Part shown: in pieces, positions 26,078-60,566 of the stretch
How the letters are laid out: each line of letters opens with the position of its first letter
How positions within the stretch are numbered: the first letter of the stretch is position 1
From: a virus
Virus record (IMG/VR): IMGVR_UViG_3300037110_000087
Coordinates: 62,001 to 126,000 of that record
DNA: 64,000 nucleotides
Direction: 5' to 3' (one strand)
Program-made: the position numbers and the translations under genes
Notes under the pieces: generated by a model
What the model saw: only the letters and a program-made list of their open reading frames with translations
What the model was told of the DNA's origin: nothing
Databases searched by the model: none

Positions 26078-26512
26078 ATGAGACAGCTTAGCTTTTACTG
26101 CGGTGACTACCAAGCCGCATTGAAGTATTTTAACGCCAACAATCCAAATTCCCACATGGAGAAGCTCACCCAGGATCTGCAGACCGGCGATCAGATGGTT
26201 GAGGAAACCCGACAATATATAGGATCATTCCTCGACAATACCCTGATTACCTATGGGGCCTTCTGGAACCAGGAAACCAGCCCACTCTATTTGTTCTCCA
26301 ATTGTGAGTTTGTGTTCAACACCCTGCGTCTACTGGTTGCCGAAGGGAAGCTGGATCGAAATCAGGTGAACATCCTCTATTTCGAGGATAAAGATGCCAA
26401 TTCCCCTCACATGGGTCTAATGATCGGGAAGAATGGACAGCTTAACTGCTGGCCCTACGGATTCTTTGATACCATGGGGAAGCTGCTGACACGGCTGATG
26501 GAACTGCGCTAG
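26078..26512 (+). CDS. Protein resembling the C-terminal tail of DUF3696/AAA (OLD-like) ATPases, 144 aa
   Basis: From memory of the family, the C-terminal half follows the end of DUF3696-type AAA ATPases. FVFNTLRLLVAEGKLDRNQVNILYFE (about 78-103; quoted only as pattern: helix, LVAEGKL, then NILYFE) corresponds to the stretch after the D-loop and His switch. GKNGQLNCWPYGFFD (about 117-131) corresponds to the DEDGxxxxWPEGFFD tail. The ATPase core (Walker A/B) is absent, so this is a stand-alone tail or remnant. Such ATPases occur in several anti-phage systems, making a decoy or inhibitor role conceivable but unproven. GTG 26075 is an alternative start. Last four bases overlap the convergent gene. 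Confidence 0.5.
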   Translation: MRQLSFYCGDYQAALKYFNANNPNSHMEKLTQDLQTGDQMVEETRQYIGSFLDNTLITYGAFWNQETSPLYLFSNCEFVFNTLRLLVAEGKLDRNQVNILYFEDKDANSPHMGLMIGKNGQLNCWPYGFFDTMGKLLTRLMELR

Positions 26513-28653
26513 CTTCCTATTGGAAATAATTTTACATAAGTCTTTATGTAGCCACTGATATCACTAAGGCCCTCCCACAACCTGTAGGATCCACACTGAA
26601 AATTTACGATCTCTGGATGTTTCTTTAGCCACTGATCCAATTTCGGCCATCTAATCTTATATGTAGCTAGCCAATGGATTCCGGGGATAACAATTTCTGC
26701 AGCGTTATTCTCGTACTTTGAAGGTATTGGTTTAAAATTAAATTGGTTACTAAAGGGATCTAATCGAGATAGCCATAATTTATAACCATCATCTGATGGG
26801 TCAACGTAGTTCAGGAGATGAAGTTTCTCACTTTCTCTGAGTCCGTCATAAGCTTCATTGTAGATTAATCTATATTTTTCCTCTTCATACTGTTGTTTAG
26901 CAAGATCGAATTTAGGAGCGTAACCCAATAAATGTTTCTTCAGATACTCGGTAGAGAATTGGATGGGATCAAACATATCCGCATCATCAAACAATTCAGG
27001 ATAAAATTCATCGGAATCGTTTAAATATCCACTCACAAAATCAAAAACCTTCTTCGTCCCACGAATCAAAGGAACTAATTTATCAAAATCCTTAATCCTG
27101 TTACCCTTGAAATGGTTAATGACACTAAGTATATCACCTATGTGAACCTTCTTCTGAATCAGCAGATCAAGATCCTTTGCTATATAAGATTCATATTCCT
27201 GGCCAGGATAGTCCAAGGGATTCACACTTTGAAGAGTAATCTTTGGTGTCACCCAAGTAGGACCGTTCATTTTTCGCAAGTAAGGAACGCAATTAATCTT
27301 ATTTTGGGCATAATCCATTAATCTTTCGTCACGTACATTTCTACTAGTGGCTACTTCAATCAGGGCGTCTATCATTCCCTTTGCTGCTTTTTGTTTTCTT
27401 ATTTCTAAACATTTATCGAGAACCTCAGGCCAGACATAGCCTGCCTGTTTACAATATTGTCCAATTTTGTCCAATTTTGTATTAGCTCCCCAATCAACAT
27501 AGTCTTTATCAGTTATTGGTATAATGAACCAATTTTGGAACATCTTAGGCTCAATCAACAGTTGTCTCTTCTTGATCTTTCCAGCCTTTAGCATTACCTC
27601 CATCTCTGAAAGAGTCTTGATGGGTATATCTTTCTGGAACTGATCAATATACTGAGCACGAAGATTCGAAGAAGTCTTCTTGATCGCACGTTCAGCTTCG
27701 GGCCAAGCTGCACCAATTACATAAAGGGCATAGCCTGCAGCCCACATACCCTTATTAACAATAGCGGCTTCAACATTAGGATCCCTGGGACCAAAATCTT
27801 CAAACCACCCTCTGATTAGATTTTCCTTATCCATGACCTGAGCATCAAACACCTTTGGTTCAAGTTCTGGATAGCGTCTAATCATAATACGCTCTAGTAC
27901 GCTAGCGATCATGACTACTGACTTAGTACCTAGAATCTTTAGATATTTGTCCGAAGGTTCGACGTAGGGAAGAATCCTCTCACAATAATCAACCATCTCA
28001 GGATCTTTCGTCTTATCCCTTATTTCATGAACTAAGTCATAGACCTGATTATTTTTGAGATGATAACCATCTCTGAAGCTCCGATCCCCACGATCACAGA
28101 ACTGACCTGAATCTGGATGTAACTGGGCGTAGGGTTTCCCATCTCGGTAAAAAATCCATAGGGGTCCATCCTTGAGATAGCTGGCAGCAGTCTTCGTACT
28201 GGCCGCCGTACACCAATTGGTATTTGATCCCAAAACTACCGCAGCCTGAGGGGTTGTTACCCGATAAACAATCCAGGGGTCTTCTTTATATTTAATCTCC
28301 GACCCATTAATGCCTTCGTGAACATTTCGCTTCTCTTGCTTCTTTGAATCACCAAATTCATCCAGAGCTTTAAACAGAGAATTGGGAGTATAGGAACCAA
28401 TGTCTGTACTATGGGATTCTTTAAACTGTGAGTTCTTCAGGCGAGTGAATTTCTCGAGTAGACCACGAATCTTTTCGACATCCTCTGGTATTTTGATATT
28501 TTTTGCTTTAATTTGTTTGACCAGCCAGTCGGTATAATTAGAAGGGGGATCAATCTCATCAGCTTGATCCAAGACCTCTGGACCCACTGAATACTTTCGC
28601 ATCAACAGCTCTTTCTTTCTCTCATTGATAACTGCACTAAACCGGAAGGTCAT
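26509..28653 (-). CDS. Large WCTA-motif protein with leader-type N-terminus, 714 aa
   Basis: The N-terminus MTFRFSAVINERKK fits the recurrent leader pattern. Residues about 126-192 contain WIVYRVTTP, NTNWCTAAS (WCTA at 147-150), GPLWIFYRDGKPYAQLHP and QFCDRGDRSF, a signature shared by large, uncharacterised phage proteins (sometimes labelled PcfJ-like). The remaining 500 residues are helical repeats with many Trp and Tyr. No known catalytic fold is apparent; the invariant Cys and acidic residues hint at an enzyme. AAGGA site. Upstream neighbours (28663, 29180) also carry leaders. Role unknown; virion-packaged effector is a hypothesis. Confidence 0.65.
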   Translation of the reverse strand: MTFRFSAVINERKKELLMRKYSVGPEVLDQADEIDPPSNYTDWLVKQIKAKNIKIPEDVEKIRGLLEKFTRLKNSQFKESHSTDIGSYTPNSLFKALDEFGDSKKQEKRNVHEGINGSEIKYKEDPWIVYRVTTPQAAVVLGSNTNWCTAASTKTAASYLKDGPLWIFYRDGKPYAQLHPDSGQFCDRGDRSFRDGYHLKNNQVYDLVHEIRDKTKDPEMVDYCERILPYVEPSDKYLKILGTKSVVMIASVLERIMIRRYPELEPKVFDAQVMDKENLIRGWFEDFGPRDPNVEAAIVNKGMWAAGYALYVIGAAWPEAERAIKKTSSNLRAQYIDQFQKDIPIKTLSEMEVMLKAGKIKKRQLLIEPKMFQNWFIIPITDKDYVDWGANTKLDKIGQYCKQAGYVWPEVLDKCLEIRKQKAAKGMIDALIEVATSRNVRDERLMDYAQNKINCVPYLRKMNGPTWVTPKITLQSVNPLDYPGQEYESYIAKDLDLLIQKKVHIGDILSVINHFKGNRIKDFDKLVPLIRGTKKVFDFVSGYLNDSDEFYPELFDDADMFDPIQFSTEYLKKHLLGYAPKFDLAKQQYEEEKYRLIYNEAYDGLRESEKLHLLNYVDPSDDGYKLWLSRLDPFSNQFNFKPIPSKYENNAAEIVIPGIHWLATYKIRWPKLDQWLKKHPEIVNFQCGSYRLWEGLSDISGYIKTYVKLFPIGS

Positions 28654-28662
28654 TTGAATTCC

Positions 28663-29175
28663 TTAAGATTCCCACATTGGTGTCATAACCTTAGCCCATA
28701 CTGCACCATAAGAATCCTCACTTGACTGGTTGATCCAAGTTTCGTCAATTCCGGGTCCGGTGATTGCAATCTCGTCGGCAAAATCTTCTGTCAAGCATTG
28801 ACTAATGCCAGTCTTCATTTCTTCGATAGAGCTGTAGTCTTCATCCCAACTGCCACCAGAGTCGGTCTGACGGAATTCCACATGATAACTGCCACTCGAT
28901 GTGGGTTCCAGATCTGCTTTCTTCACCTTGTTCTTCAGAGGCTTGACAGCACTCTTGTCATTGCCAGATTTGTTGTCCTTGTTGAACTTGATCTGAGGAT
29001 ACTTTTTGGTCTTGGCCAACAGAGGATCAGAGAATGGGGTTTCCAACTCTGGAGCGCCCACATTTGGTCCATCGATTAGAGGCAGAACGGCACCCTTGTC
29101 GTTGCCAGAATCATTTCTCTTATTGAACACAATAGTTGGATATTTCTTGACAGATTTGAAGTTTAATTTAGACAT
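28663..29175 (-). CDS. Leader protein with two SGNDKSAV motifs, 170 aa
   Basis: N-terminus MSKLNFKSVKK belongs to the leader family. Two copies of a shared motif follow, at residues about 11-33 (YPTIVFNKRN-x-SGNDKGAVLPL) and 58-80 (YPQIKFNKDN-x-SGNDKSAVKPL). The same motif occurs in the 57247 and 58312 proteins 28 kb away, including 35 identical nucleotides. The C-terminal 75 residues form an acidic domain. AGAGGAT site; the start lies 5 bp after the 29180 gene. Function unknown. Confidence 0.65.
   Translation of the reverse strand: MSKLNFKSVKKYPTIVFNKRNDSGNDKGAVLPLIDGPNVGAPELETPFSDPLLAKTKKYPQIKFNKDNKSGNDKSAVKPLKNKVKKADLEPTSSGSYHVEFRQTDSGGSWDEDYSSIEEMKTGISQCLTEDFADEIAITGPGIDETWINQSSEDSYGAVWAKVMTPMWES
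28931..28965 (-). repeat. 35-nt exact repeat shared (inverted) with 58387-58421
   Basis: The complement of 28931-28965 is identical over 35 nucleotides to 58387-58421; both encode the SGNDKSAVKPLK motif. Because the genes face opposite ways, this is an inverted repeat about 29 kb apart and a possible recombination site. Confidence 0.85.
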
Positions 29176-29179
29176 AATT

Positions 29180-29686
29180 CTATCCTCTTTTCAATTTTAA
29201 CATTTTGGGCTTTAGTTTTCCTTTGATACCCATTCCTTTCAGGAAATCTTTATCAGCATCAGTGATCTCAGGCAATGGCTCAAGATCCATCAATTGATCT
29301 TTGATCCCCTCCATCATTTTCTGATGTTTCTTGATTCTTTCTTCCCTTTCCTCCCTGGTCGCGAATGTGTTGTTAGCACAGTCTATACAAATGGTTGATT
29401 CACCATCCTCACTCACACAGATTGGATCTTCTTCGGTATCCTTGATTCCACCACCACACCAGTCACAATTAATCACATCGCCCAGACCAGCTTTCTTGGC
29501 TTCCAGCATCTCTTTCAGTTCACCGCCCTGATCCTTCAGTTCTTTCTTGTCTTCTTTCTTGGTCGGATGCTTGAGGAATTTCACCAGTTCCTTATGTTCA
29601 TCAATGGCGTCCTCTAAGGACATCGAGTAAGTGTCATTCTTGATCGTGTCAGATTGCTTGACAAATGCTTTTAAATTAAGTTTCAT
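29180..29686 (-). CDS. Leader protein with zinc ribbon and GMGIKGK motif, 168 aa
   Basis: ATG 29686 (MKLNLKAFVKQ) follows AAAGGA and gives a clear leader; the longer frame is unsupported. A helical Lys/Glu-rich part is followed by a C2C2 zinc ribbon (CDWCGGGI ... CIDC, about 79-107), another helix, and ITDADKDFLKGMGIKGK at about 139-155, nearly the same as in the 10406 protein. The basic tail KPKMLKLKRG ends it. Function unknown; grouped with the other leader proteins. Confidence 0.65.
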   Translation of the reverse strand: MKLNLKAFVKQSDTIKNDTYSMSLEDAIDEHKELVKFLKHPTKKEDKKELKDQGGELKEMLEAKKAGLGDVINCDWCGGGIKDTEEDPICVSEDGESTICIDCANNTFATREEREERIKKHQKMMEGIKDQLMDLEPLPEITDADKDFLKGMGIKGKLKPKMLKLKRG

Positions 29687-29688
29687 AA

Positions 29689-31074
29689 TCAGTCCTTTGG
29701 ATCTAGTGTAACATTCAAGACCCATTTCTTTTTGCCAGAATCCCAGATTCGATACCAGCCCTTCTTGGCTGCTTCTTCCTGCTCATTTACACCCGCTGGA
29801 ACTCTGAAGTTGAACTTATGCTTGCGTACCTGTTGTCTCGTGTAGTAATAATCAGGCCCCAGTTCTTTTACACATTCAAAGCCCAGATCTTGATAAAGTT
29901 TCCCAGTATGCAAACGATTATCTGAGAAACTTATTATCTTCTGATATTGATTGAGTTGGAAAATCAAATTAAGTGCTTTCTGATGTGGATTCCAGGTTTT
30001 ATACTGATGGTCGAAACTCGCTCTGGTCCATTCTAGTTCGGCCCCAGGCCGTTTCTTGAAAACCCAAGCTCCGACAACCTTGGATTTATACTTCGCGCAA
30101 ATGTAATGGGTCCCACTACACTGATTATCGCCAAGATAATGGAATTTGCTTAGAAATTCCTTCACATCATTCATATGACAAAATTCATAGGTTGGCTTGA
30201 TACGCTTTTGTGATTTGGGAATTAGTTGATCGATGATAAGCTGCCAATTCTCATCTCCAAAGATCTGGAGCAAACGAATTCCGAACGATTCACATAAGAG
30301 ATGTTTATCATGATCTCTTTTGGGTTCATTCGCTACAGCTTCCGAGTGCCATCTTAATCCTTGATATTCTATCCCAGTTCTAATAGAAGGAATCCAGATG
30401 TCAAGCTCATATGGCTTTATTATGGTTTTGTCTGAAAATAAAGCGTCAGGGAAAGATTTAACAATCAATTCGAAGATCTTGTGAGCGGGGCTTGTATCCG
30501 CCGTCCCTGCAACAACACAACCACAGCTAAGAGTGAACTCCCTCAGCACATCTTTACCAACAATCTCTTTAGAATTCCCACAATCACACAAAAACCGGAA
30601 TTTCTCACCTGTTTTGAGACTGAACTCTCCTTCTGGCAATCGGTCGGGATCGAGTCGTAGCTTACCCCATTTTTCATTCAATATTAAGCGATCAGTAAAG
30701 TTACATCTCCCACAACGATGAACATTACCTCTAACTGCTGTCCGGAATGCTTTTATGGAAGTCCTACCACAATCACAGATGAACTGCACTTTCATAGCAG
30801 ATCCCTGACTCCACTCATCCAGAAGAGGTTGATCTGGATCTAATCTCAGCTCGCCCCATTTTTGTTCGAGCCAATAGCTCTTCGGTTTGTCCTCGCAATG
30901 ACCACAAGATTTTAGTTTTATAACTGCGTAGAACTGTTTGGTCGTTGTTCTACCACAGCTACAAATGAATACAAATTCAGAATGAGATCCTGGACCCCAA
31001 TCGTTGGGAAGGAGCTGATTCGGGTCAAGATGCAGGGTACCAAACTTTGTATTAAGCCATTCTTCGCGCTTCAT
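29689..31074 (-). CDS. EDxHD/VSR-like homing endonuclease with three zinc ribbons, 461 aa
   Basis: Three tandem ribbons (about residues 1-60, 61-125, 126-187) share KxGxLxLDP...W..GS and CxCGR...CxxC. A Vsr-like (EDxHD) nuclease core follows: YELDIWIPS (223-230), GIEYQG (234-239), RWHSE (241-245), KRDHDKHLLCESFGIRLLQIF. A C-terminal GNAT-like fold domain (HYLG ... SFDHQYKTWNPH ... FECVKELGPDYYYT) completes a domain set seen in phage-borne homing endonucleases. It would cut a specific DNA site to promote its own spread. It lies directly downstream of the major capsid gene with no ribosome site of note, consistent with a mobile intergenic insertion. Confidence 0.8.
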   Translation of the reverse strand: MKREEWLNTKFGTLHLDPNQLLPNDWGPGSHSEFVFICSCGRTTTKQFYAVIKLKSCGHCEDKPKSYWLEQKWGELRLDPDQPLLDEWSQGSAMKVQFICDCGRTSIKAFRTAVRGNVHRCGRCNFTDRLILNEKWGKLRLDPDRLPEGEFSLKTGEKFRFLCDCGNSKEIVGKDVLREFTLSCGCVVAGTADTSPAHKIFELIVKSFPDALFSDKTIIKPYELDIWIPSIRTGIEYQGLRWHSEAVANEPKRDHDKHLLCESFGIRLLQIFGDENWQLIIDQLIPKSQKRIKPTYEFCHMNDVKEFLSKFHYLGDNQCSGTHYICAKYKSKVVGAWVFKKRPGAELEWTRASFDHQYKTWNPHQKALNLIFQLNQYQKIISFSDNRLHTGKLYQDLGFECVKELGPDYYYTRQQVRKHKFNFRVPAGVNEQEEAAKKGWYRIWDSGKKKWVLNVTLDPKD

Positions 31075-31105
31075 TAGTAAGTTAACCCAAATTTGTCTAT
31101 ACAGA

Positions 31106-31131: not shown

Positions 31132-31153
31132 GACCTGTTTATGAACGACTCAT

Positions 31154-32272
31154 TTAGAGTCTGGTGCCCTTGTTCACGCCGTTCGCGTTAACGATGACGG
31201 GTGCGACGATCTCGCGGATGAGCCAGCCACGTGCGGGGATACCCAGGACGTTCTTGTTGATTGGCTCGCTAACGAGGCCCTGGCGAACCAGGAACTGACC
31301 GAGAGTCTTGGGGTGTGAGAAGAAGTAAATCTCACCGGCCTGGAGGACGCGCAGCTGAGAGTTGATGAATGCGTCAGTGTGCATTGTCACACCAAGCAGA
31401 CTACCAAGCTCACCAGTCAGCACGATTTCATGCTTGGTGACGGGATCAAACCAGGAAGCGAAGGTAGGATCAGCTACCAGATCGTTCATGAGGTTGTTAG
31501 CCATCCAGCAATTGCTCACTGGTAGACCGCGATTCTCAACCTGATTCTTCAAGCTCTGATAGACCGCAGGGGTCAAGCTGGAGAAGAAAGTGGGAACGTT
31601 GAGGGTGGCAGCAGCCTGATCAGCCAGGGTCTTCCACTGGCGGTCTTCCTGCACCATGACCATTTCCATACCGTCCTCAAGCTTCTCTTCAAGAAGATCA
31701 GCACCGAGGCGAGCGAGTTCCTTTTCCTCAATCAGGATGTGTGACTCGATGTAATTCTCACGCAGGTAAAGCTCTCTCTGCTTGATGTGAGATACAGGGG
31801 TCTGGCCATCAGTTGACATCGAGAAAGCAAGGGTATCCTGCTTGCGGATGTAGACTTTGCACTCTTCCTGGACCTTGAGTTCACGTTCCTGAGCGAAACG
31901 GCGAAGGAAACCAGTACGGCTGATTGTGGTGCGGATTTCGTTGGTCACTTCTTCACCGATGGTGCCGAAGTTTGCAGCGGAACGGGTTAAGCTAGCGGTG
32001 CGGATATCAGAGGCTAGCTGATCCAGGGTTTCGCGAGCAGAAGCCTGCTTCTGAATCTGGCCCTTCTGAGCAGCACTAACGATGTTAGCAATCTGCTGGA
32101 AGGCATCACGCTTGTTGTAGGCGTTAATCTCGCCATTGCTGTTTGCGACGGCTTCGTTGGACTGGGAATACCCGCCCTTGGAGGTCACGCCACCAGCTTT
32201 CTGCTCTGAGGCAGGAATGTCGGTACCGGTAAGGGTAGCAACAAACGGGTTTCTTTTTGGTGTTACGGCCAT
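31154..32272 (-). CDS. Major capsid protein (HK97-type), 372 aa
   Basis: Length and composition fit HK97-fold capsid proteins. A helical, Gln/Ala-rich N-terminal part (about 1-110) is followed by a shell domain: RELYLRENYIESHILIEEKELARLG (E-loop/spine pattern, given as motif), CWMANNLMNDLVADP, ELGSLLGVTMHTDAFIN, and a C-terminal P-domain strand LVSEPINKNVLGIPARGW. GGAGT site at ATG 32272. Upstream genes (32278-34635) look like head proteins, and a strong terminator follows, as expected for a highly expressed gene. Residues before about 100 may be a cleaved delta-domain; the protease is not in the window. Confidence 0.85.
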   Translation of the reverse strand: MAVTPKRNPFVATLTGTDIPASEQKAGGVTSKGGYSQSNEAVANSNGEINAYNKRDAFQQIANIVSAAQKGQIQKQASARETLDQLASDIRTASLTRSAANFGTIGEEVTNEIRTTISRTGFLRRFAQERELKVQEECKVYIRKQDTLAFSMSTDGQTPVSHIKQRELYLRENYIESHILIEEKELARLGADLLEEKLEDGMEMVMVQEDRQWKTLADQAAATLNVPTFFSSLTPAVYQSLKNQVENRGLPVSNCWMANNLMNDLVADPTFASWFDPVTKHEIVLTGELGSLLGVTMHTDAFINSQLRVLQAGEIYFFSHPKTLGQFLVRQGLVSEPINKNVLGIPARGWLIREIVAPVIVNANGVNKGTRL

Positions 32273-33525: not shown

Positions 33526-34635
33526 TTAGCGACTTAAAAAGCCGGTACGGAAATTTCTGGTTTCAACTGGAACCACTGGGACGCTGGCTTTGTGCAAACG
33601 AGCAGCAAACTCACGGTCAGGGGTGTAATCGGAAGTGGGAAGACCCTTGCCGAAATCGGAACTGGCGCGGGAAACGAACTTCTGGAAATCTTCCTTGACA
33701 GAAGCAGAATATCCGCTGATTTCATCAGTTACTTCCTGAAGAGCGGCAATGAACTCACCGTCGTCGTGCATTACGCCATGGGCGAACACATCAGGCTGGT
33801 CAATGCTTGCTTCAGCAGCAGCTTCGAAAATGCGAGCGCCGAGAGGATTGGTGCGAACACCGGCCTTCAAGGCAGTCCAGGCAGTTGCCATGTCATTGAA
33901 AAGACTGACGCGAGCTTCAGCTTTGATTGCAGCAACATCAACGGGTTCCTGAATGGAAACCACGCGACCCTTGCTAATGAAAACCTTAGCTTTCAGGAGA
34001 GGCAGGACTACTGACCAGCCACTCTTCTCAGCAGCTTTCTGGACCTGAGCGGTAAAGGTAGCAGTATTGTTGAACAATGCCAGTACATCCTCACTCTTGT
34101 CTTCCTGATCCGCATAAGCGACGGTAGCGATGGGGAACCCATCCCTGGTCAGGGTCAGAACTGGGTTCTCAGTGGAACCTGTCTGCACAAAACTTGCCTT
34201 GCAGCCTTCAAGACCTTCCATGCAAGACTTGGTGTCAGCTTCTTCACTGTAAGCTTCTGGCTTATCAGCTGGAGGGGCCTGAGTCTCTAGATCGGTTGGT
34301 TCTGGCTCTTCACCTTCAGTTTCCTCACCTTCGTCGTCATGCACTTCGATGGTAATCATAGTAATGGGTTCGCCATCACCATAATCCTCGATCTGCAGGG
34401 GTTCAGTAGGAACAACTAAAAGATTGCCACTTGGGGTGGTATAGACCTGAGCGTCTAGCTGCTCAGCTCCTTCTGGAATCTCGACATCGCTAGTGAGCTT
34501 AGTCTCAACCGCAGGAACTTCAGCTTCTTCTGTCTCTACATCAACAGGAGGAGGAGCCTGGGTTTCGTCTTCAGCGCGACGCTTGTGATTTCCAGAGGTT
34601 CTTTTGTTCAGTTGTTCAAAGCTTTCTCTTGCCAT
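33526..34635 (-). CDS. Probable scaffold/prohead core protein, 369 aa
   Basis: First gene of the capsid operon, GGAGGT site. Residues about 20-140 are extremely acidic with Pro/Glu/Thr repeats and little predicted order, as in scaffolding or core proteins. Residues about 140-330 are helical/mixed, and the end is basic (RNFRTGFLSR). No serine-protease motif is evident. Scaffold assignment is inferred from position, acidity and lack of other features. Confidence 0.55.
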   Translation of the reverse strand: MARESFEQLNKRTSGNHKRRAEDETQAPPPVDVETEEAEVPAVETKLTSDVEIPEGAEQLDAQVYTTPSGNLLVVPTEPLQIEDYGDGEPITMITIEVHDDEGEETEGEEPEPTDLETQAPPADKPEAYSEEADTKSCMEGLEGCKASFVQTGSTENPVLTLTRDGFPIATVAYADQEDKSEDVLALFNNTATFTAQVQKAAEKSGWSVVLPLLKAKVFISKGRVVSIQEPVDVAAIKAEARVSLFNDMATAWTALKAGVRTNPLGARIFEAAAEASIDQPDVFAHGVMHDDGEFIAALQEVTDEISGYSASVKEDFQKFVSRASSDFGKGLPTSDYTPDREFAARLHKASVPVVPVETRNFRTGFLSR

Positions 34636-35277: not shown

Positions 35278-36403
35278 GGGCATAGATATTAAGTCCAAGA
35301 ATTCTGATCTACAAATCTTCGTTAAAGATGAATTAAAAACCTATGGCTGGGAGGATGTGGTACCTGTATTCTTTGCTTCCTGGGTATCTGGGGTACCCTC
35401 TGTATTAATTGGTGATCCTGGGGCATCTAAGACTACATTCCTACAGCGTTTTAGTCTGGCATTGAAGGAAAAAACTGAGACATTAGACCTCAAGTATCTG
35501 ACTCCTACTAGACTTCTTGGTATCCCAAATCCAGATAAACTACGACAGGGGATCCTAGAATATGTAGGTGGTCTGATTGCTACCCGTCCTAGGATTGTTA
35601 TCCTTGATGAATTGACCCGCTGCAATGATGGTGTACAGAGCTTGATTCTAGAGTTCATCAGAGAGGGCCGGTTAGATCAGACTTACATTGCTTGTAAGAG
35701 AGTTTGTACTGCCAATCCCCCTATGAGTGGTCTGGTCCAGGTGAGTTATCTCGACTATGCTAATGCTACCCGTATGGTCCATATCGAAGTCCCAAACCTA
35801 TCCAAGGAATTATTCCCTACCTTCGTGAAGGAATGGGGCCTGAAATGGGAGCCTACTCAAGAAGCCTGCGAATTGGCCAAATATGTGAATGGTCTAGAAC
35901 TGAAGCTACCTGATGCTGAGAAGCTCCAGATGATGACGACCACAATTCTTGGATCGTTGGTTGACTATAACATCAATGGTAGACAGCTAAGCAATCTGAT
36001 GCGTCTATTAGTGGCTACCTACACGATCGAACAGTCTGGACTCCATACCTACACCAGTGATGATATTGGTAGAGTGGCTGTCTCAATCGTGCCATTGAAG
36101 CTCACCAAGAACAAATGGACTACCCAGGCGGATGTACTAGCCTCTGAGGTCGCTAAAGATCTTCCGCTTCTGCCCTGGCAACACAAGGAGAAGGATAACA
36201 CTTCGGTGATTGCATCCCGGCAGGTTGAAGAGATCAAGAAGACCTTGGCAGAGAAACAACCCGAAGAGCTAATCGAAATCATCAAGAGCGGTGATCAGCT
36301 GAATAGCTTTATTGCCTTCGGAGAGCTAATCAAGAATATGGCTGTCAATTCCAGCTGGAATATTCCATTCGACAACTTTGACGCGATTCTTAAAGCGGTT
36401 TAG
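35270..36403 (+). CDS. MoxR-type AAA+ ATPase, 377 aa
   Basis: Walker A GDPGASKT at 48-55, Walker B IVILDE at 109-114, sensor-1 region CTANPP at about 145-150 and an arginine-rich sensor-2 region match MoxR/RavA-type AAA+ ATPases. These usually work with a von Willebrand factor A partner as chaperones or metal-centre maturases. Such a partner (VWA plus HExxH) is encoded at 40206-41507 on the other strand. The stop overlaps the convergent ART gene by four bases. Role in infection unknown. Confidence 0.8.
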   Translation: MTKGIDIKSKNSDLQIFVKDELKTYGWEDVVPVFFASWVSGVPSVLIGDPGASKTTFLQRFSLALKEKTETLDLKYLTPTRLLGIPNPDKLRQGILEYVGGLIATRPRIVILDELTRCNDGVQSLILEFIREGRLDQTYIACKRVCTANPPMSGLVQVSYLDYANATRMVHIEVPNLSKELFPTFVKEWGLKWEPTQEACELAKYVNGLELKLPDAEKLQMMTTTILGSLVDYNINGRQLSNLMRLLVATYTIEQSGLHTYTSDDIGRVAVSIVPLKLTKNKWTTQADVLASEVAKDLPLLPWQHKEKDNTSVIASRQVEEIKKTLAEKQPEELIEIIKSGDQLNSFIAFGELIKNMAVNSSWNIPFDNFDAILKAV

Positions 36404-36811
36404 ATTGCGATCTTGATCTGTTCTGGATAAAAGGCAACCCAGGAATCCGCTCGATCATGAGCGGCTTCATATTCATTTCGATAAACTAACCCATCGTAAC
36501 CGTTCATAGTGGCTCTAATCTTGGGGATCAGGCCCTAGATCTTTCACACGTTGAGGGTTTTTGATATTTAAATAGACTGGTATATAGCGAATTCCTTCTT
36601 CTCCGCGAAAATCCAAACGATCGGCATGTTCATCCACCTGTGAGAGAGTACCAAAATGGGCACCCATTTTTGTATCGAATGTACCAAAGTCATGTGAAGT
36701 GACATGATATAGTTTTAAAGGTTTCCCTTTAGAATCAACCACCTTGCTGCCTGAGAACCAGAATGTATCAAGTTCGGCGGTCTTAAGAAAAGCCCTCAGG
36801 GTGAGTTTCAT
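36400..36811 (-). CDS. Leader-bearing ADP-ribosyltransferase-like protein, interrupted by a +1 shift
   Basis: ATG 36811 begins MKLTLRAFLK, a full leader. The domain reads SKVVDSKGKPLKLYHVTSHDF (H36; motif only), MGAHFGT (49-55) and IPVYLNIKNP (77-86), the order found in polyvalent-protein-type ADP-ribosyltransferases. The 0 frame stops at 36515-36517. The +1 frame from CCC-C at 36523-36526 continues KIRATMNGYDGLVYRNEYE ... AFYPEQIKI, the exact C-terminal half of this family, ending at 36400 in a neat 4-bp overlap with the convergent ATPase stop. The composite is 136 aa. Such enzymes attach ADP-ribose from NAD to host proteins. Programmed shift, pseudogene or sequence error are open. Confidence 0.65.
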
Positions 36812-36812
36812 T

Positions 36813-37202
36813 TTATCCGTCCCTATATTTTTCGCCCAGAGCGTTAAGGGCGAGAAAACCTTTATCTGTGCCTCTCCAATTCTCCCCAGTGAAGGTATCA
36901 ATCAGGAAGACTGTGTTACAAGCACAGTAAGTCTTTAGAAAGTGTTTGACTGCCGCGAAATTAAGGGACAACCTCGGCCCTATTATTTCGAAGACCCCCA
37001 ATCCATCAGTGGAGAGTCTACACCAGCCAGCAGCCTTCATCGTGTCTGCTATGTCACCGAAATCCTTGTAGTCTCTTTTGACAATTTGGTACGCCATATC
37101 ACGATGACCCTCGTAGGCACAAGGTATCATTTCGAGAGTGTTCAAATTGGCCCAGCCACACCCTGATGGTTGTTTGATATTAGCAACCAAATGGAGTTTC
37201 AT
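36813..37202 (-). CDS. Leader protein of unknown function, 129 aa
   Basis: Begins MKLHLVANIKQ, nearly identical in peptide, but not in codons, to the 59189 start. The rest is a small Cys-containing alpha/beta domain (WCRLSTDGLGVFEI, FLIDTFTGENWRG). No recognised family. It sits between two ART-like leader genes with one-base junctions. Confidence 0.65.
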   Translation of the reverse strand: MKLHLVANIKQPSGCGWANLNTLEMIPCAYEGHRDMAYQIVKRDYKDFGDIADTMKAAGWCRLSTDGLGVFEIIGPRLSLNFAAVKHFLKTYCACNTVFLIDTFTGENWRGTDKGFLALNALGEKYRDG

Positions 37203-37624
37203 TACATATACTCCCCGGTCACCACGTTCATGATTTTCACGTGCTCAAAGATCGCGATGCTTCCGGCCTTGTCGCCTTGGACATAAGCGTCGAAGCCTTT
37301 CTTGCGCAGGGTTTCGAAGAACTCAATCGTCGCGTGGTTCATTTTCTCGTAGTGCTTTTCTCGATCGGCCTCAGTGGCGTGATAAGGATTTCTAACATCG
37401 AGCCAGCAGGTGTATAGTTCCCCTTCTTCTCCAATAAGGTTTGATTGGTACTCTTGATTCTTGGTGAACCAGATACCTTCCGGCTTTCGTTTCAATACAT
37501 TCAATTTCTTGGCCGCGCTACCATGGTACATACGACAGTTAATCTCGGTCTTAGGGAATGGACATTTGGACTGTTTGAATTCAGTCTTGAATCCTTTTCC
37601 CTTCGCAACAAAATGGAGTTTCAT
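37202..37624 (-). CDS. Leader-bearing ADP-ribosyltransferase-like protein, 140 aa
   Basis: Starts MKLHFVAKGK. The body follows the small phage ART layout: RMYHGSAAKKL (YHGS 33-36), GIWFTKNQEYQ (50-60), YTCWLDVRNPYH (71-82), then RKKGFDAYVQGDKAGSIAIFEHVKIMNV (C-terminal strands, motif only). In relatives, the first His, the later Tyr and a Glu/Gln position bind NAD; the catalytic Glu is not clear here. The start overlaps the neighbouring stop. Likely host-modifying enzyme (inference from fold pattern). Confidence 0.6.
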   Translation of the reverse strand: MKLHFVAKGKGFKTEFKQSKCPFPKTEINCRMYHGSAAKKLNVLKRKPEGIWFTKNQEYQSNLIGEEGELYTCWLDVRNPYHATEADREKHYEKMNHATIEFFETLRKKGFDAYVQGDKAGSIAIFEHVKIMNVVTGEYM

Positions 37625-38400
37625 TTCTTTCTCCGATAATTAAGCTTCCGACTATACTGGTAGTGATTAGCCTCAATCCAACCCACCACCTTGTCCAGGT
37701 CCGCAGCCTTGAAATAGGGATGACTTTCATCACCCACGTACCACTCGTCGTCATACCCATTCTTTGAGACAGGTACAATATTCCGAGCAGAAGGACCCCA
37801 GAAAATAATCTGCTGCTCTTCATCACCAAAGTGGGAAACTTCGATTCCACTGGCTCGGAAAATAACAGCCTCTGTGCCATACTTGTTGGTCGGATAGTTG
37901 TAATTGATGTCAAAGGCGAAATTGTAACCAATGCCTCGTTTCCTGTTCTTAAACCAAGTGGTCAGACCAAGCTGCTCCATTTCCGCGAAGCCATACTTGA
38001 AACCGTCAGTCGCGATTGCGTAGGGGTCATCACAGAAGTGAATCAACCACCCATCCTTGAACACGCTATCGAATTCCAGATGCATGTAAGAGGGACATTC
38101 TACCGCGTCGTGGTTCATTGCATCATATTGCTTCTCATTGAAGAATTTGACCATGAGCGCATCAGGCATCGAATAGATTGAGTCGTAATTGAAATCCCCG
38201 TCTTCACCAAACAGGGTGATGAATTCACTCACTTCTTCATAAGGTTCTTCTTCTAAAAATTCCGAAAGCAAATGGGGAAAGACACTGGCTAGTTCACGCC
38301 CTTTATCAGCCTCATCCATTTCCAGATAATTCTTAAGATGCACAATTTCTTGGCAAAGGTAAGCCTGTCTGGTGATGTGGGCCTTTAGGTGTAGTCTCAT
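37621..38400 (-). CDS. Leader protein with remote ART-like C-terminal domain, 259 aa
   Basis: Begins MRLHLKAHITRQA. The first 100 residues are helical and acidic. Residues about 104-212 show WLIHFCDDPYAIATDGFKYG (118-137), GLTTWF (145-150), IGYNFAF (157-163), EAVIFRASGIEVSH and EEQQIIFWG (194-202), a series I associate with small phage ADP-ribosyltransferase-like proteins. The match is weaker than for the two downstream genes. An extended -10 (TGATACAAT, minus strand) ends seven bases before the ATG, so the message may have almost no leader. Confidence 0.5.
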   Translation of the reverse strand: MRLHLKAHITRQAYLCQEIVHLKNYLEMDEADKGRELASVFPHLLSEFLEEEPYEEVSEFITLFGEDGDFNYDSIYSMPDALMVKFFNEKQYDAMNHDAVECPSYMHLEFDSVFKDGWLIHFCDDPYAIATDGFKYGFAEMEQLGLTTWFKNRKRGIGYNFAFDINYNYPTNKYGTEAVIFRASGIEVSHFGDEEQQIIFWGPSARNIVPVSKNGYDDEWYVGDESHPYFKAADLDKVVGWIEANHYQYSRKLNYRRKK

Positions 38401-40197: not shown

Positions 40198-40205
40198 TTA
40201 TACTC

Positions 40206-55319: not shown

Positions 55320-55961
55320 ATGTTATTTAACGCCAACAACATTCTTGCAGCAGTCAACAACAAGGCTGACGTTCTAAATCGTTCAGATTTGGAATGCATC
55401 TCCGTTAAGGCATGTGGATCAAAGGGTGATTCCAAGATCTATATGGTCCGTTACGCTTATGCAGCCGTAGCTGGGGTACCAACTAGAGTTCAGTTCCAGG
55501 CATCCATTAATAAGGATCTTGGTCAATCAGTTACGATTGATCCATGTCATATTCTTGTCGGCCAGTACGCAATCGTTTCCAAGGTTTATAGCAAGTATCC
55601 ACTGACTGAACAGACCATGCCAAAGCAGTATATTGGTGGCATGAAGGCTATTCTTGAAGAGAATCCTACTGATAAGCTGATTGAGATGGGTGACGAAGTT
55701 CGTGGTTTTGATGGTATGTCAACTTTCCTGGGTCAGGTTGTGGGATACGATGACAATGAAGTCAGCCTTCGCACTGGTGCCGTTATCAAGTCAGTTGGTT
55801 TTGATCAGATCATCGAAGTAAAGGCCGCTCCTCGTTTCGCTCCGATCGATCAGGCTTGCTACGATTATTATATTCAGATCTATCCTAAGGAGTTTGTTGA
55901 AAAGCTTACTGCCAAGGAAGACTATCTGAAGAGCCTCCAGAAGAGATCTGCTGAGAAGTAA
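55320..55961 (+). CDS. Hypothetical tail-module protein, 213 aa
   Basis: GGGAG site at ATG 55320. Mixed alpha/beta domain with a KOW/SH3-like beta segment (FLGQVVGYDDNEVSLRTGAVI, about 130-155). It is the last gene before a strong terminator, so it belongs to the tail operon. Family not recognised. Confidence 0.55.
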   Translation: MLFNANNILAAVNNKADVLNRSDLECISVKACGSKGDSKIYMVRYAYAAVAGVPTRVQFQASINKDLGQSVTIDPCHILVGQYAIVSKVYSKYPLTEQTMPKQYIGGMKAILEENPTDKLIEMGDEVRGFDGMSTFLGQVVGYDDNEVSLRTGAVIKSVGFDQIIEVKAAPRFAPIDQACYDYYIQIYPKEFVEKLTAKEDYLKSLQKRSAEK

Positions 55962-55973
55962 GTTTCCTCTTCG

Positions 55974-56015
55974 ATGGCCAAGCTTTCTTCCGACTCTCCA
56001 GGAAAGCTTGGCCAT
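55974..56015 (+). terminator. 14-bp hairpin ending the tail operon
   Basis: ATGGCCAAGCTTTC (55974-55987) pairs with GAAAGCTTGGCCAT (56002-56015) over a 14-base loop and is followed by TTCTCTTATTT. Separates the tail module from the leader-protein block. Confidence 0.75.
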
Positions 56016-56034
56016 TTCTCTTATTTGGTGATCA

Positions 56035-57243
56035 ATGAAACTCCATCTTAAAGCCTTTGTTAAAAAAGCTTATGGTACGGATTACGCCTTTACAACAGGT
56101 GAATCTGTTAAGGTAGATGGGAAGGCGGTTTCCATTTGGTGCATTTTAGTTGTTGATACACCAGACTACATTGGTGGGCGAATGGCCATCAGAAAATGTG
56201 ATCTTGGTCTAGATGAAGATGAACACGAATATTTCGTCATTTTTACAACTAGCAGGAATCTGACCGGCGAAGAAATCGAAGGTGGAATCTATCTTAGAGA
56301 AATGATCGGTGATTGGGATGAAATTTACGAACTCTTGGATTGGAGTGAATGGAGTCCAAGGGACCAGTACAATCTTGGGGAATTTGAATATTTCGAAGAA
56401 ACTGGTGAGTGGCCTGATGCAATGAAACCAGAACTCTCTGAATCAGATATAAAAGAATTAAAGCAATGGGGAATTAAAGGAAGGAATAAAATGGAACTTC
56501 ATCTAGTAGCGACTATTCAGAAGAAACCGATCAAAAAGATATCGGTCCATCGCAAAAAGGGCGCTATTCCTCCTCCAGTTGTTACCCCGACACCTCAACC
56601 GGTTAATCCACCGGCCCAGACTGAAGTAGTGAATCAGAATACACAGACCACGAACACCCAGACTCAGGCTCCTCCTCCTAAGTGGATGGAAAATCCCTGC
56701 TACAATCCTCTATACATTGGTGATACTGGACAATCAGCTGCTTCGCCAGAGAAGGCTGAAGCAGCCGCCAAGGATAGATTGGCTAAGGGTATTATTGACC
56801 AATTTCATAAACAGAAATATTCCTTTAGTGAACAAATAATTGGGGCATGGGTTAAGAAATGGAGCAAGATCGGAATTGAAGGCGTTGATGGTCACTTCCA
56901 AGATCAGGGTTGGAATCGTGCCTGGGCAACGCTGGATGCTAGACAGTATGGCGATTTGGCCAAATATGTTAGAGATCACCCAACTGGTGAACAGAATGGG
57001 CAAAATCTCCAGCAGAACAACAACCAGACTACCCAGAACAACAACCAGAATTCCAAGAATATCGTGTATGATAAGACCCAGACCAAGACTTCTGATAAGG
57101 GGCCTCTGGCACCAGGATTCCTTCCTGATGGTCATTATCCATCAAAACAGGATCTGCTGAAGCAGTTTCCGAATGTACAAAATGACGATAGTTTAGCACG
57201 ACGCCAATATGATCTAGCAAGACACCAACAGCCACAAGGATAA
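56035..57243 (+). CDS. Leader protein, apparently two fused leader proteins, 402 aa
   Basis: Begins MKLHLKAFVKK. Residues 1-152 form a unit that ends LSESDIKELKQWGIKGR, the same end motif as in the 10406 and 29180 proteins. At residue 153 (ATG 56491) a second full leader starts (MELHLVATIQKK), with an AGGAAGG site seven bases upstream. So the frame reads as two leader genes joined without a stop, or one gene with an internal start (250-aa product). The second part has Pro/Thr/Gln/Asn-rich linkers around a helical core (about 245-325). Function unknown. Confidence 0.65.
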   Translation: MKLHLKAFVKKAYGTDYAFTTGESVKVDGKAVSIWCILVVDTPDYIGGRMAIRKCDLGLDEDEHEYFVIFTTSRNLTGEEIEGGIYLREMIGDWDEIYELLDWSEWSPRDQYNLGEFEYFEETGEWPDAMKPELSESDIKELKQWGIKGRNKMELHLVATIQKKPIKKISVHRKKGAIPPPVVTPTPQPVNPPAQTEVVNQNTQTTNTQTQAPPPKWMENPCYNPLYIGDTGQSAASPEKAEAAAKDRLAKGIIDQFHKQKYSFSEQIIGAWVKKWSKIGIEGVDGHFQDQGWNRAWATLDARQYGDLAKYVRDHPTGEQNGQNLQQNNNQTTQNNNQNSKNIVYDKTQTKTSDKGPLAPGFLPDGHYPSKQDLLKQFPNVQNDDSLARRQYDLARHQQPQG

Positions 57244-57246
57244 GAA

Positions 57247-58302
57247 ATGAAGATGAAATTTGTTGCCAAAAAAGTTAAGGTTTACCCAACTATTGTCTTC
57301 AACAAGGATAATAAGTCGGGTAATGATAAAAGTGCTGTTCAGCCCTTGAAGAAGAAAGCAGGGATTCAGGATGACGCTCACAAGTGTGTATTTTGGATTG
57401 ATGAGTTTGATGACAATCCAGACGTAAACCCCGATTGTTTTGTCGATCTCGCAAATCCGGCTATGACCAAAGAATTATGTGCCAAAGCTGGGATTGAACT
57501 GATTGGCTACGATTCGAGCAGAGGGTGTGCCTCAGGATATCTACCCGATGATTTATATAATGAACTCGAAACTACGGGTTCGTTCGATAAGACCGTCCAA
57601 GGAAGCAATGGAGTTTATTATCAGATTCATGCTCCCTTCGAAACCCTCCCTGAAGATACCCTTAATTTCGAGGGAAAGACCAAGAGATACCCAACTATTA
57701 CCTTCCACAAGAAGAATCAGTCAGGTAATGATAAAAGTGCTGTTCAGCCTTTGAAGAAAGCTGAAGTAAGGACCGCTGAGAAATCCACTAAATGTGTCGA
57801 TTGTGGTACCCCAGGTACTGTAAAAGATATGGTGTCTAATAATGAAGGTGCTGGTTACGTTTGCAACAAGTGCTTTCACAAACGCCGTATTGAAGATGAT
57901 AAAGCCAAGAAAGGATCCCCTAAGACCGCCTTGGTGCCCAAAGAACTGAAACTTCCTCCCGAATCTCTTAAAGGACCGCAGGGTCCAGCGAATAAAGAGA
58001 CTGTAGAGAAGCAAAAACTCGCTCCGGTTCCTCATGAACCGATGAAGGCTAAAGCGAGTGCGCAGAATCCAGTATTTGTCACCCTAGAAGAAAGTGAAGA
58101 GAACGAGAACGGGACTAGCATGACCTTCTATTATCACAAGGGAACAGCCACCACAGATGAGATTAAGCAATTTATTATTGATCATGATGGACGTTTTGCC
58201 TGTGGTCTTTCGGTGATGGTTAATGACGGTATGACAGTTGATCTCTGTGAGGAACAGCCTTTTCCAGAATATGATAGGTTTCAAGCTAATCCAGTGGGTT
58301 AG
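57247..58302 (+). CDS. Leader protein with two SGNDKSAV motifs and a zinc ribbon, 351 aa
   Basis: Begins MKMKFVAKKVK. Copies of the motif YPTIVFNKDNKSGNDKSAV-x-PL lie at residues about 13-34 and 146-167 (YPTITFHKKNQ...). A C2C2 ribbon (KCVDCG ... YVCNKC) lies at about 182-208. The first motif directly abuts the leader. A charged C-terminal domain ends it. AAGGAT site. Paralogous in its modules to the 28663 and 58312 proteins. Confidence 0.65.
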   Translation: MKMKFVAKKVKVYPTIVFNKDNKSGNDKSAVQPLKKKAGIQDDAHKCVFWIDEFDDNPDVNPDCFVDLANPAMTKELCAKAGIELIGYDSSRGCASGYLPDDLYNELETTGSFDKTVQGSNGVYYQIHAPFETLPEDTLNFEGKTKRYPTITFHKKNQSGNDKSAVQPLKKAEVRTAEKSTKCVDCGTPGTVKDMVSNNEGAGYVCNKCFHKRRIEDDKAKKGSPKTALVPKELKLPPESLKGPQGPANKETVEKQKLAPVPHEPMKAKASAQNPVFVTLEESEENENGTSMTFYYHKGTATTDEIKQFIIDHDGRFACGLSVMVNDGMTVDLCEEQPFPEYDRFQANPVG

Positions 58303-58311
58303 GAGGATAAA

Positions 58312-59181
58312 ATGACGAAGCTAAAATTCAAAGCAAAGAAAACCAAGAAATACCCTACTATTACCTTTCACAAGGATAACAAGTCAGGCAATGACAAGAG
58401 TGCTGTCAAGCCTCTGAAGAAAAAGGCTTCACCTACCTCCATTCTCTTTGTGGATGAGATTGAAGGTGTACTACACGAACATATTATCAACTGTGAAGCT
58501 ACTGCTCCTCCTGAGGAGATCCTTAGGGCAGTTGATATGGCATGCTTCGAGGGAGATGAAGAAGCACTCAATGAGAGTGGGCCACTCCGCCTAGTCTCTG
58601 ATACCACAATTGATGGTAATCGCGTTATCGAAGCTTGTTTTGGTGATAGAAATCATCAGGCTTGGATTGCAATTGGTCCTACTGCCAAAAGGGCTATCAC
58701 TAAAGCTTCTGATATGGATTTTGAAGCATCCGTCAAGACCGCTCTCAAACCAACCGAAGTGAAAATGAATCCGGGTTCCGAGAAGGGTCCCAAGGGCGAA
58801 CAGAACAAGGAGACTGTTGCTCAGAAGCCAATTATCACAGTCGAACCGGGCGAGAAAGATAAGGTAGAAAAGAAAGCTGCTGGAGAATGGGGTCCCGGTT
58901 CGGGAGCGATTTCCGGATCCTTGGCAGACAGGCTCAATCAGGCGAAAGCTTTCCCTGAGCGAATAAGCAGGGGTAAGTTCGAGCTTTGCAAATTCACTGA
59001 TGAAGTAGATCCCAGCACACAATGCTATGAAAATGACGGTCCTTGCGTTGGTTTCGAGGGTTGTGAGCTTTATCTTGATGATCATCCAGAAGGGTCTGAC
59101 AGAGGTGGTTATGTCGTTTTCTGCGAACTGAATGGGGAAACTGCTCATTTCGATGAAGGCATGGGTGACTGGGTGGACTAA
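58312..59181 (+). CDS. Leader protein with one SGNDKSAV motif, 289 aa
   Basis: Begins MTKLKFKAKKTK behind a perfect AGGAGG; the motif at residues about 12-35 follows immediately. The body holds an acidic alpha/beta domain (about 40-150), a Pro/Lys linker (GSEKGPKGEQNKETV) also recognisable in the 57247 protein (LKGPQGPANKETV), and a C-terminal Cys-rich domain (CKFTDEVD...C...CVGFEGC). Function unknown. Confidence 0.65.
   Translation: MTKLKFKAKKTKKYPTITFHKDNKSGNDKSAVKPLKKKASPTSILFVDEIEGVLHEHIINCEATAPPEEILRAVDMACFEGDEEALNESGPLRLVSDTTIDGNRVIEACFGDRNHQAWIAIGPTAKRAITKASDMDFEASVKTALKPTEVKMNPGSEKGPKGEQNKETVAQKPIITVEPGEKDKVEKKAAGEWGPGSGAISGSLADRLNQAKAFPERISRGKFELCKFTDEVDPSTQCYENDGPCVGFEGCELYLDDHPEGSDRGGYVVFCELNGETAHFDEGMGDWVD
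58387..58421 (+). repeat. 35-nt exact repeat shared (inverted) with 28931-28965
   Basis: Identical over 35 nucleotides to the complement of 28931-28965, inside the SGNDKSAV motif coding region. Confidence 0.85.
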
Positions 59182-59188
59182 CAAAGCA

Positions 59189-59629
59189 ATGAAGCTCCAT
59201 CTGGTCGCTAATATCAGGAAAGCAATCATCACCCAGCATACAGACCTGGGTGGTGAACCCATGAGTCCTATCATGGAAGCCATCTATTGGTGCCTGATCT
59301 TCAATATTGAGCGTTTTGTATCAGTTAGGGAACAAAAACAAGAATGGAATGGGTTCAAAAGCATTGTTCCCAATCCTGATGAAAAGCCAACTCGTAAGAT
59401 GATTGGGAATGAAAAACCCCTCTCCTACCTCATGGTCAAATATTATTGGAAAGCGTTGAAACTCGATCGAGTTTTAGATCAGGAGATCAAGGATCATTAT
59501 CTTTTTGAGATTGATGCAGATTCTGAAGAGGAACTTATTGCTAGATTCGATCAAATCCTACAAATGATTGAAGGTCATGTCTGGGATCTTATCCTCGCCA
59601 GAAAAAAGGCCGACGATTTAAAACCCTAG
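59189..59629 (+). CDS. Leader protein of unknown function, 146 aa
   Basis: ATG 59189 (MKLHLVANIRK) is chosen over an upstream frame that overlaps the previous gene. The leader is almost the same peptide as that of the 36813 gene. The body is helical with many Trp and Lys residues (LMVKYYWKALKLDRVL) and an acidic C-terminal half. No family recognised. Ribosome site weak. Confidence 0.6.
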   Translation: MKLHLVANIRKAIITQHTDLGGEPMSPIMEAIYWCLIFNIERFVSVREQKQEWNGFKSIVPNPDEKPTRKMIGNEKPLSYLMVKYYWKALKLDRVLDQEIKDHYLFEIDADSEEELIARFDQILQMIEGHVWDLILARKKADDLKP

Positions 59630-59646
59630 TCAATAAATGTTAAACT
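59618..59646 (+). promoter_or_regulatory. Probable extended -10 promoter before the 59674 gene
   Basis: TTAAAA (59618-59623), 17 bp, TG-T-TAAACT (-10 at 59641-59646). A GGAG site and ATG 59674 follow. Confidence 0.45.
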
Positions 59647-59673
59647 GGAGGAGAAATCCTCTGGAGTTAACTT

Positions 59674-60372
59674 ATGTCTGATCAGCAAGACCAATCAATC
59701 GATAGCCTCTTAGGTCAAATTGATGATACCTTTGATCCGACCTCTTATATCCCCACCGAACTGACTAACCATGTCTGTTGCGTCTGTGCTCTCCCTATCG
59801 GCCAGAGGATGGAACTTGAGAAGGAATTGTTCGAAACCTTCGATATTGAGGCATCAGTCACTAAGAATGCTCCTATCACTCTCCGAGATATTAGGAAGCA
59901 TCTGACTGAGTGTGTGGTGGAGAGAGATTCCATTATCCAGACTGGCAAGATGATTGGAGAACTTCAGGCCCAGCTCAGTTTGTTTGTCGAGGAGATGGAC
60001 AAATATCGGCTCTTGATTAATTCTAGTGAAAAGAATCCTGATATGATGCTGGCCTATAATGATATGTTTAAGAACTTCCGGACCTCAGTGGACTCAATTC
60101 GCAAGTACAATCCCCCACAGAGACAGGCCGAGGATATTAAGAATAACGCCATTAAGCCCTTGGTAATTCAGCTGCTCAGGACTACTATTGAGCAGTTCCG
60201 TAATACCAAGGACTATGTGGTAAATGCTTTTCCAGAGGCCAAGGACCGGATGGAAGAATCTTTTAGAATTGCCCTGAAGAACTGGGGTGAAATTGCTGAG
60301 TCCCAGCATAAACAATCATTAGTGAAAATGGCCGAGATCCTTGGGGTCCAACCCTCTGATCTAATGAAATAG
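59674..60372 (+). CDS. Helical protein with N-terminal Cys pair, terminase-small-like, 232 aa
   Basis: GGAG site. Residues about 32-80 read HVCCVCALP ... R-ELEKELF ... ITLRDIRKHLTECV, reminiscent of the zinc/helix-turn-helix start of some small terminase subunits (H-CxVC ... RAEIE ... VRRHxxxH). The rest is long helices. A DNA-packaging or DNA-binding role is possible; no large terminase is in the window. Tentative. Confidence 0.5.
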   Translation: MSDQQDQSIDSLLGQIDDTFDPTSYIPTELTNHVCCVCALPIGQRMELEKELFETFDIEASVTKNAPITLRDIRKHLTECVVERDSIIQTGKMIGELQAQLSLFVEEMDKYRLLINSSEKNPDMMLAYNDMFKNFRTSVDSIRKYNPPQRQAEDIKNNAIKPLVIQLLRTTIEQFRNTKDYVVNAFPEAKDRMEESFRIALKNWGEIAESQHKQSLVKMAEILGVQPSDLMK

Positions 60373-60380
60373 AGGTTTTG

Positions 60381-60566
60381 ATGAAAGTACATTTACAAGC
60401 AACAGTTATTAAAACAGGCAGAGGCAAGGTAACTCTCCATACCGAGTTCAAGAAGCTGAAGAATGAGACTCCAGCCTATGTGAAGGACAATATTGGTGTA
60501 GATATCGAGAAAGATATGGACAAGACTGTGGACTACATGAAAGAATCGGGCGAGTATCCAAAATAA
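60381..60566 (+). CDS. Small leader protein, 61 aa
   Basis: ATG 60381 follows AGAGGT at short spacing. Begins MKVHLQATVIK, then a basic segment and an acidic helical tail. The smallest carrier of the leader, little more than the leader plus a helix. Confidence 0.65.
   Translation: MKVHLQATVIKTGRGKVTLHTEFKKLKNETPAYVKDNIGVDIEKDMDKTVDYMKESGEYPK

Follow-up and report, generated by a model that had tools for sequence, protein, structure and literature searches.

A short N-terminal leader on unrelated jumbo-phage proteins as a candidate head-targeting propeptide

What could a peptide of a few residues do at the start of many unrelated phage proteins? This question is raised by a 64,000-base window (bases 62001-126000) of the 307,124-base phage record IMGVR_UViG_3300037110_000087, in which open reading frames (ORFs) with different bodies share a leader with the consensus MKLHLKA. 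We examined the whole record, taking every possible start codon into account. With a probability of roughly three in four, we read the leader as an N-terminal capsid-targeting propeptide for host-modifying proteins that are packaged in the head and injected. Below, leader genes are named by their first coding base, and positions refer to the window unless given as genome positions.

Occurrence of the leader and selection on its residues

In the 307-kb record, 29 ORFs begin with the strict motif M-[KRE]-[LVM]-x-[LF]-x-A. At internal positions, which served as a control, it occurred 0.47 times on average and at most 4 times in 300 draws, and in nine relatives it starts only 0-2 ORFs per genome. 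A profile scan gave 20 starts with a score of at least 14, and none in the reversed sequence. When looser forms are counted, the whole record holds about 35 carriers. That is, the leader is real, its frequency lies beyond chance, and the set is larger than the first-pass annotation saw. All nine strong leaders listed there are present: MKLNLKAFVK (29686), MKLTLRAFLK (36811), MKLHLVANIK (37202), MKLHFVAKGK (37624) and MRLHLKAHIT (38400) on the minus strand, MKLHLKAFVK (56035), MELHLVATIQ (56491, internal), MKLHLVANIR (59189) and MKVHLQATVI (60381) on the plus strand. Among the weaker versions proposed there, 6229 (MAKLFLRA), 57247 (MKMKFVA) and 58312 (MTKLKFKA) fit, 28653 (MTFRFSA) and 29175 (MSKLNFKS) fit loosely, and 10406 (MKLRIAK) and 11439 (MTKVQFILK) do not. 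Nor are carriers confined to the three blocks described earlier; they are spread over the whole genome, and those outside the window include starts at genome positions 4629, 20752, 28377, 31365, 32083, 32364, 37003, 143663, 143924, 144206, 173832, 174518, 188786, 211983, 228700, 229952 and 230430.

Residues 3, 5 and 7 of the leader are nearly invariant (L, L, A) and followed by a weaker pattern, [FTN]-[VIL]-K-K-A, at residues 8-12. In 26 strong leaders Ala7 is invariant, and residues 1-7 contain a single Glu (position 2 of one leader). Two look-alikes, a phosphoesterase at genome 203985 and the dihydrofolate reductase of phage NCTB, were excluded as genuine first strands of known folds.

Selection acts on the leader peptide, as previously proposed, because synonymous codons of the leaders vary at background rate. 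At shared leader residues, the observed same-codon rate was close to that expected from codon usage for Leu (0.18 versus 0.17), Ala (0.25 versus 0.29) and Lys (0.59 versus 0.52). The near-identical leaders of 37202 and 59189, for example, use different codons at positions 2, 5 and 6. By inspection, the 60 bases upstream of the leader starts have nothing in common except ribosome-binding sites. Together, these findings therefore speak against both an RNA-level signal and a DNA element that was copied recently. Strict leader DNA patterns searched against IMG/VR gave single matches per contig, little above the estimated chance level, and the literature searched, which lacked most subscription journals, contained no report of the leader.

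The bodies behind the leader are indeed unrelated; ADP-ribosyltransferase (ART) domains are abundant among them, and Nudix, SET and ParB-like sequences occur as well. Pfam identified NUDIX on the carrier at genome 37003 and SET on that at genome 211983. Several carriers matched ART-PolyVal, two of them passing the curated cut-off and the rest falling below it. Four leader genes, together with the stretch in which one of them continues out of frame, account for six of the genome's seven ART-PolyVal matches. ParB-like sequences were recognized by eye in carriers 32364, 188786, 229952 and 230430 (genome positions), without support from Pfam at 0.1. The leader can be separated from the fold, as the genome also encodes Nudix and SET paralogues that have no leader. 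A second SET-domain protein, likewise leader-less, lies at 3483-3866.

Two further elements are limited to this set: the motif D-x-x-x-L-x-x-x-GIKG, in four of the strong carriers as well as the 10406 gene, and the module KKYPTIxFN..SGNDKxAV, hereafter the SGNDK module, in six copies on four carriers. A scan of IMG/VR for this module gave no match. Two carrier pairs are paralogous (genome 28377/98811 and 143663/143924). Alignment-free AlphaFold models of two leader proteins of the window reached a mean predicted local distance difference test score of only 43 and 35 and were discarded.

Private leaders in related phages

Capsid proteins with about 30% identity to that of the window phage occur in PaBG, Lu11, HRDY3, Motura, NCTB, the SNUABM phages and fHe-Yen9-02; a first capsid-protein scan with a single-sequence query had given no match. 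We analysed nine related genomes (GR7B to 180 of 208 kb) with a recurrence test that was blind to the leader of the window phage: residues 2-8 of all ORFs were compared pairwise, and pairs with similar bodies were omitted. Five relatives turned out to have private leaders, each on roughly 7-15 proteins: ME[ML]MLALA in HRDY3, MKIQLAVA in Lu11, MxIQAxARLxA in Motura, MEIxVSLS in SNUABM_1 and MEIxISLS in fHe-Yen9-02. Neither NCTB nor K566 gave a clear leader set in this test.

We scanned 53 of the relatives' leader proteins and found three Nudix, three GNAT, two topoisomerase IB and one ribosome-modulation-factor-like domain, versus none of the four types in 55 controls of matched length drawn from those genomes. 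Homologous Nudix, GNAT and large 600-900-residue proteins keep a leader across phages, each in its local version, and a Nudix homologue in Motura has none. Mean leader identity was 0.605 within a genome on unrelated bodies, and between genomes 0.383 on homologous bodies (28 pairs, which are not independent) and 0.178 on unrelated ones. Agreement within a genome thus exceeds agreement between homologous bodies, a pattern of concerted evolution that one shared recognition partner per phage would produce. In a close relative, whose capsid protein is 71% identical to that of the window phage, MKLHLVAFVV stands on a body that matches no protein of the window phage, encoded in the gene group after the capsid gene.

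Type IB topoisomerases carry the phage's own leader in two relatives, HRDY3 (record 108378) and Lu11 (record 154604), which suggests an injected topoisomerase. The ribosome-modulation-factor-like leader protein of Motura (L124:2823-3056; E 1.7e-5, under the Pfam cut-off) is a possible injected ribosome inactivator.

Head maturation, known systems and other explanations

The leaders of HRDY3 and Lu11 terminate in [LI]A[LVTI]A. We scanned all proteins of each genome, N-termini excluded, for [LIVM]A[LVTI]A[AS]. In HRDY3, two core-like proteins encoded between the protease and capsid genes rank first and second of 431 genes, and in Lu11 the orthologous core-like protein ranks first of 348 (6 sites versus 0.28 expected, p 5.6e-7). 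A site of this kind also lies close to the N-terminus of the HRDY3 protease, and the capsid proteins of HRDY3 and Lu11 show [IV]ATA|SS at the same alignment column. Cleavage at the aligned RAPSA|REEA would cost the PaBG capsid protein 19% of its mass; it is reported to lose about 20% on maturation (PMC7412058). HRDY3 proteins annotated as ATPase (record 226749-228724), a single fused gene in Lu11 (record 39347-41251), look like split prohead core or scaffold proteins full of ATA|S-type sites.

In the window phage, the head maturation protease, which the first-pass annotation had left to be found, is encoded at genome 147505-148212 (phrog_18299, E 1.4e-31) and shares 25% identity with the HRDY3 protease across the matched region. 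Three consecutive leader genes (genome 143663-144415) shortly precede it, and the gene of an unannotated 490-residue protein (genome 148222-149694) adjoins it. The latter protein holds KKYPEITFNHHCENDKGKV, a KKYPEITFN..NDK relative of the SGNDK module; because that module is otherwise seen only in leader proteins, we take the 490-residue protein to be probably a head core protein. It also contains VNIAFVKKS, the genome's best internal match to leader residues 7-12, and four [LIVF][KR][KRT]A sites versus 0.36 expected, a hint only, as the motif was picked after inspection. The motifs [LIVM]A[LVTI]A and L-x-L-x-A gave no signal in the core proteins of this phage, and its cleavage link is only suggestive.

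One ART family allowed leader type to be compared with protease type. Its leaders end in LALA or LAVA in HRDY3 (MEMMLALA|GSSVLYHL) and Lu11 (MKIQLAVA|GSSVLYHL), and in LxE (LFE, LAE, LNE) in LR756508 (MQKLQDLLFE|AVSPLLYHV), K566 (MKKFNEFANELAE|AVNDTVYHG) and SCTP-2 (MNLNE|SLSATVFHY). Peptidase_S77, the family of T4 gp21, is present in exactly the latter three phages and absent from seven of seven clade members tested, including the window phage. We regard this as a strong hint that leader type follows protease type in this family. In LR756508.1 (a 484-kb uncultured phage, region 160-300 kb), the leaders M[KR]LKxLLxE and MKLxExxLRxIVREEI recur on many ORFs; given the S77 protease of this phage, they appear to form a large set of the T4 type.

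The closest functional parallel is the capsid-targeting sequence (CTS) of T4, a short N-terminal peptide common to otherwise diverse proteins (IPI-III and Alt, substrates of gp21). According to a T4 review (PMC3012670), the internal proteins form a diverse defence set with only the CTS in common. Just as these proteins act on the host, the leader proteins of the window phage have effector-type bodies. The peptides themselves differ: in the T4 record, IPII and IPIII start with MKTYQEFIAE|A and Alt with MELITELFDE|D, whereas MKLHLKA lacks the conserved Glu and has no gp21 site (hydrophobic-x-Glu) at its end. Furthermore, the window phage has the phrog_18299 protease instead of a Peptidase_S77, and about 30 carriers, presumed to be packaged, against a handful in T4. 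The best explanation is that the leader works like the T4 CTS but does not belong to the T4 type, because both a gp21-type site and a gp21-family protease were tested for and are absent.

In SPN3US and phiKZ, N-terminal propeptides removed by the prohead protease are thought to target proteins into the head, and the first 15 residues of gp53 and gp54 are identical (PMC5694885). The leader would resemble these propeptides in head targeting and in its presumed removal by a protease. They differ from it in that they are often longer than 100 residues and cut at AxE or SxE, and in that no single short one recurs on dozens of unrelated proteins. A third parallel is offered by the polyvalent proteins of phages and conjugative elements, for which a co-injected role is predicted and whose domains include ART-PolyVal and ParB-like ones (PMC5512222). 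The domain repertoire is the same as that of the leader proteins, but polyvalent proteins fuse at least two disparate domains, whereas leader proteins are mostly separate, short and apparently single-domain. Nearly all those scanned have at most one effector domain by Pfam; the protein at genome 229952 appears by eye to combine ParB-like and ART sequences.

According to our proposal, the leader would earmark small proteins for entry into the assembling prohead, presumably by core binding. These proteins form a large and rapidly changing set, which includes ADP-ribosyltransferases, Nudix, SET and ParB-like proteins as well as many members of unassigned fold. Inside the prohead, the tag would be cut off by the head maturation protease at an alanine-type site; in their mature form, the proteins would exit together with the DNA to influence the host as infection begins. 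The first-pass annotation had likewise proposed a targeting or cleavage tag. Independent support for this idea comes from the effector-type bodies, the relatives' private leaders, core-protein sites in two relatives and the match of leader to protease type in the ART family. Its targeting half may be general; its cleavage half is backed by a sequence match in two phages only.

Several observations weigh against the proposal. PaBG, PhiXhv-12 and the part of GR7B covered had no leader set in the recurrence test. Core proteins are not singled out by the leader-end motif in three relatives (SNUABM_1, fHe-Yen9-02 and Motura), so that no cleavage link could be established for them, and in the window phage the cut site is ambiguous between Ala7 and Ala12. 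An ART protein of 842 residues at genome 191713 bears no leader, and the protease contrast consists of a single ART family plus three phages with an S77 protease. In the literature searched, neither virion proteomics nor measured N-termini turned up for a leader-bearing phage.

Could the leader instead sort proteins to a destination unrelated to the virion, such as a phage-made compartment, a membrane or a host complex? Localization signals are likewise short, shared and lineage-specific, and this explanation would fit both the negative core-site test in three relatives and the lack of virion data. However, a signal for a replication compartment predicts a leader on core replication enzymes. 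No polymerase or core replication enzyme was found among the carriers of the window phage; a polymerase carrier had been named in the first-pass annotation as fatal to packaging. Export or membrane insertion is opposed by length, since 7-12 residues with charged or polar positions are too short for a Sec or Tat signal. In addition, the leader end agrees with core-protein sites in HRDY3 and Lu11, and one ART body has LxE-ending leaders in phages with a T4-type protease. We therefore consider another destination unlikely.

That the leaders are leftovers of gene duplication or recombination at a shared start, with little function, seems more improbable still. Paralogous carriers and the shuffling of the SGNDK and GIKG motifs would agree with such an origin, but residues 3, 5 and 7 hardly vary although synonymous codons are randomized, and leaders agree within a phage on unrelated bodies and differ between phages on homologous ones. 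Nor do we give much credit to the idea that the leader is the first beta strand of a common fold: its hydrophobic residues alternate and genuine first strands, as in the two look-alikes above, resemble it, yet carriers have unrelated folds (ART, Nudix, SET), and Nudix proteins lacking the leader exist in the window phage and Motura. Least probable of all, and disfavoured, is a signal in the RNA or in translation (a downstream box or regulatory RNA) with the peptide as by-product. The position at the start codon would suit it; background-rate codon variation and upstream regions that share only ribosome-binding sites do not.

Head targeting thus remains our preferred reading. Whether it extends to a jumbo-phage supergroup is an even bet: such phages would use a second, non-T4 head-loading code, in which a lineage-specific address peptide co-evolves with an alanine/serine-type maturation protease and 10-30 or more injected effectors per virion can be listed from sequence alone. 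The injected proteins of jumbo phages are largely uncharted. Should the leader prove to be a packaging tag, each phage's injected effectors could be listed from the opening ten residues of all its genes, among them many of unassigned fold whose likely targets are host defence, transcription or translation. Lineage-private leaders would then form a natural series for the co-evolution of maturation protease and substrate, and provide short portable tags to load proteins into large capsids.

Leader genes in the window

Four leader genes lie side by side on the minus strand. The first (36515..36811) encodes MKLTLRAFLKTA with an ART-PolyVal domain (PF18760), the second (36813..37202) MKLHLVANIKQP with an unassigned body, the third (37202..37624) MKLHFVAKGKGF with an ART-PolyVal-like body (E 1.8e-5, under the Pfam cut-off) and the fourth (37621..38400) MRLHLKAHITRQ, again unassigned. 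A homologue of the 37624 protein at genome 173832 is likewise leader-bearing. The ART gene 36811 (36403-36811, minus) stops at 36515, and the C-terminal part of the ART domain is encoded further on in a different frame (genome 98403-98519); candidate causes are a frameshift, decay and a sequencing error.

Genes 29686 and 29175, likewise on the minus strand, lie downstream of the major capsid gene (31154..32272, minus) in its operon. Gene 29180..29686 encodes MKLNLKAFVKQS and has a DxDFLKGMGIKGK motif close to the C-terminus. It is followed by 28663..29175, with the leader-like start MSKLNFKSVKKYPT and two SGNDK modules. Also on the minus strand, 26509..28653 encodes a 714-residue protein with the weak leader MTFRFSAVINERKK. 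Upstream of the capsid gene, 33526..34635 (minus) is a core or scaffold candidate by position only.

The plus-strand block (56035-60566) comes after a tail-fibre region. Its first ORF, 56035..57243, starts with MKLHLKAFVKKA and contains a second leader, MELHLVATIQKK, at 56491 immediately behind a GIKGRNK motif; it looks like two leader genes fused in frame. Then follow 57247..58302 (MKMKFVAKKVKVYPT, two SGNDK modules), 58312..59181 (MTKLKFKAKKTKKYPT, one SGNDK module), 59189..59629 (MKLHLVANIRKA) and 60381..60566 (MKVHLQATVIKT, 61 residues). Further away, 5390..6229 (minus) encodes MAKLFLRAGIQSQ with an ExoX-like C-terminal element, and the protein of 10406..11437 (plus) has a start unlike the leader (MKLRIAKIKS) and the motif DKDFLRGMGIKGK, found elsewhere only in leader proteins. 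Finally, the major capsid gene is separated from the leader genes downstream of it by an inserted HNH/homing endonuclease gene (29689-31074, minus).

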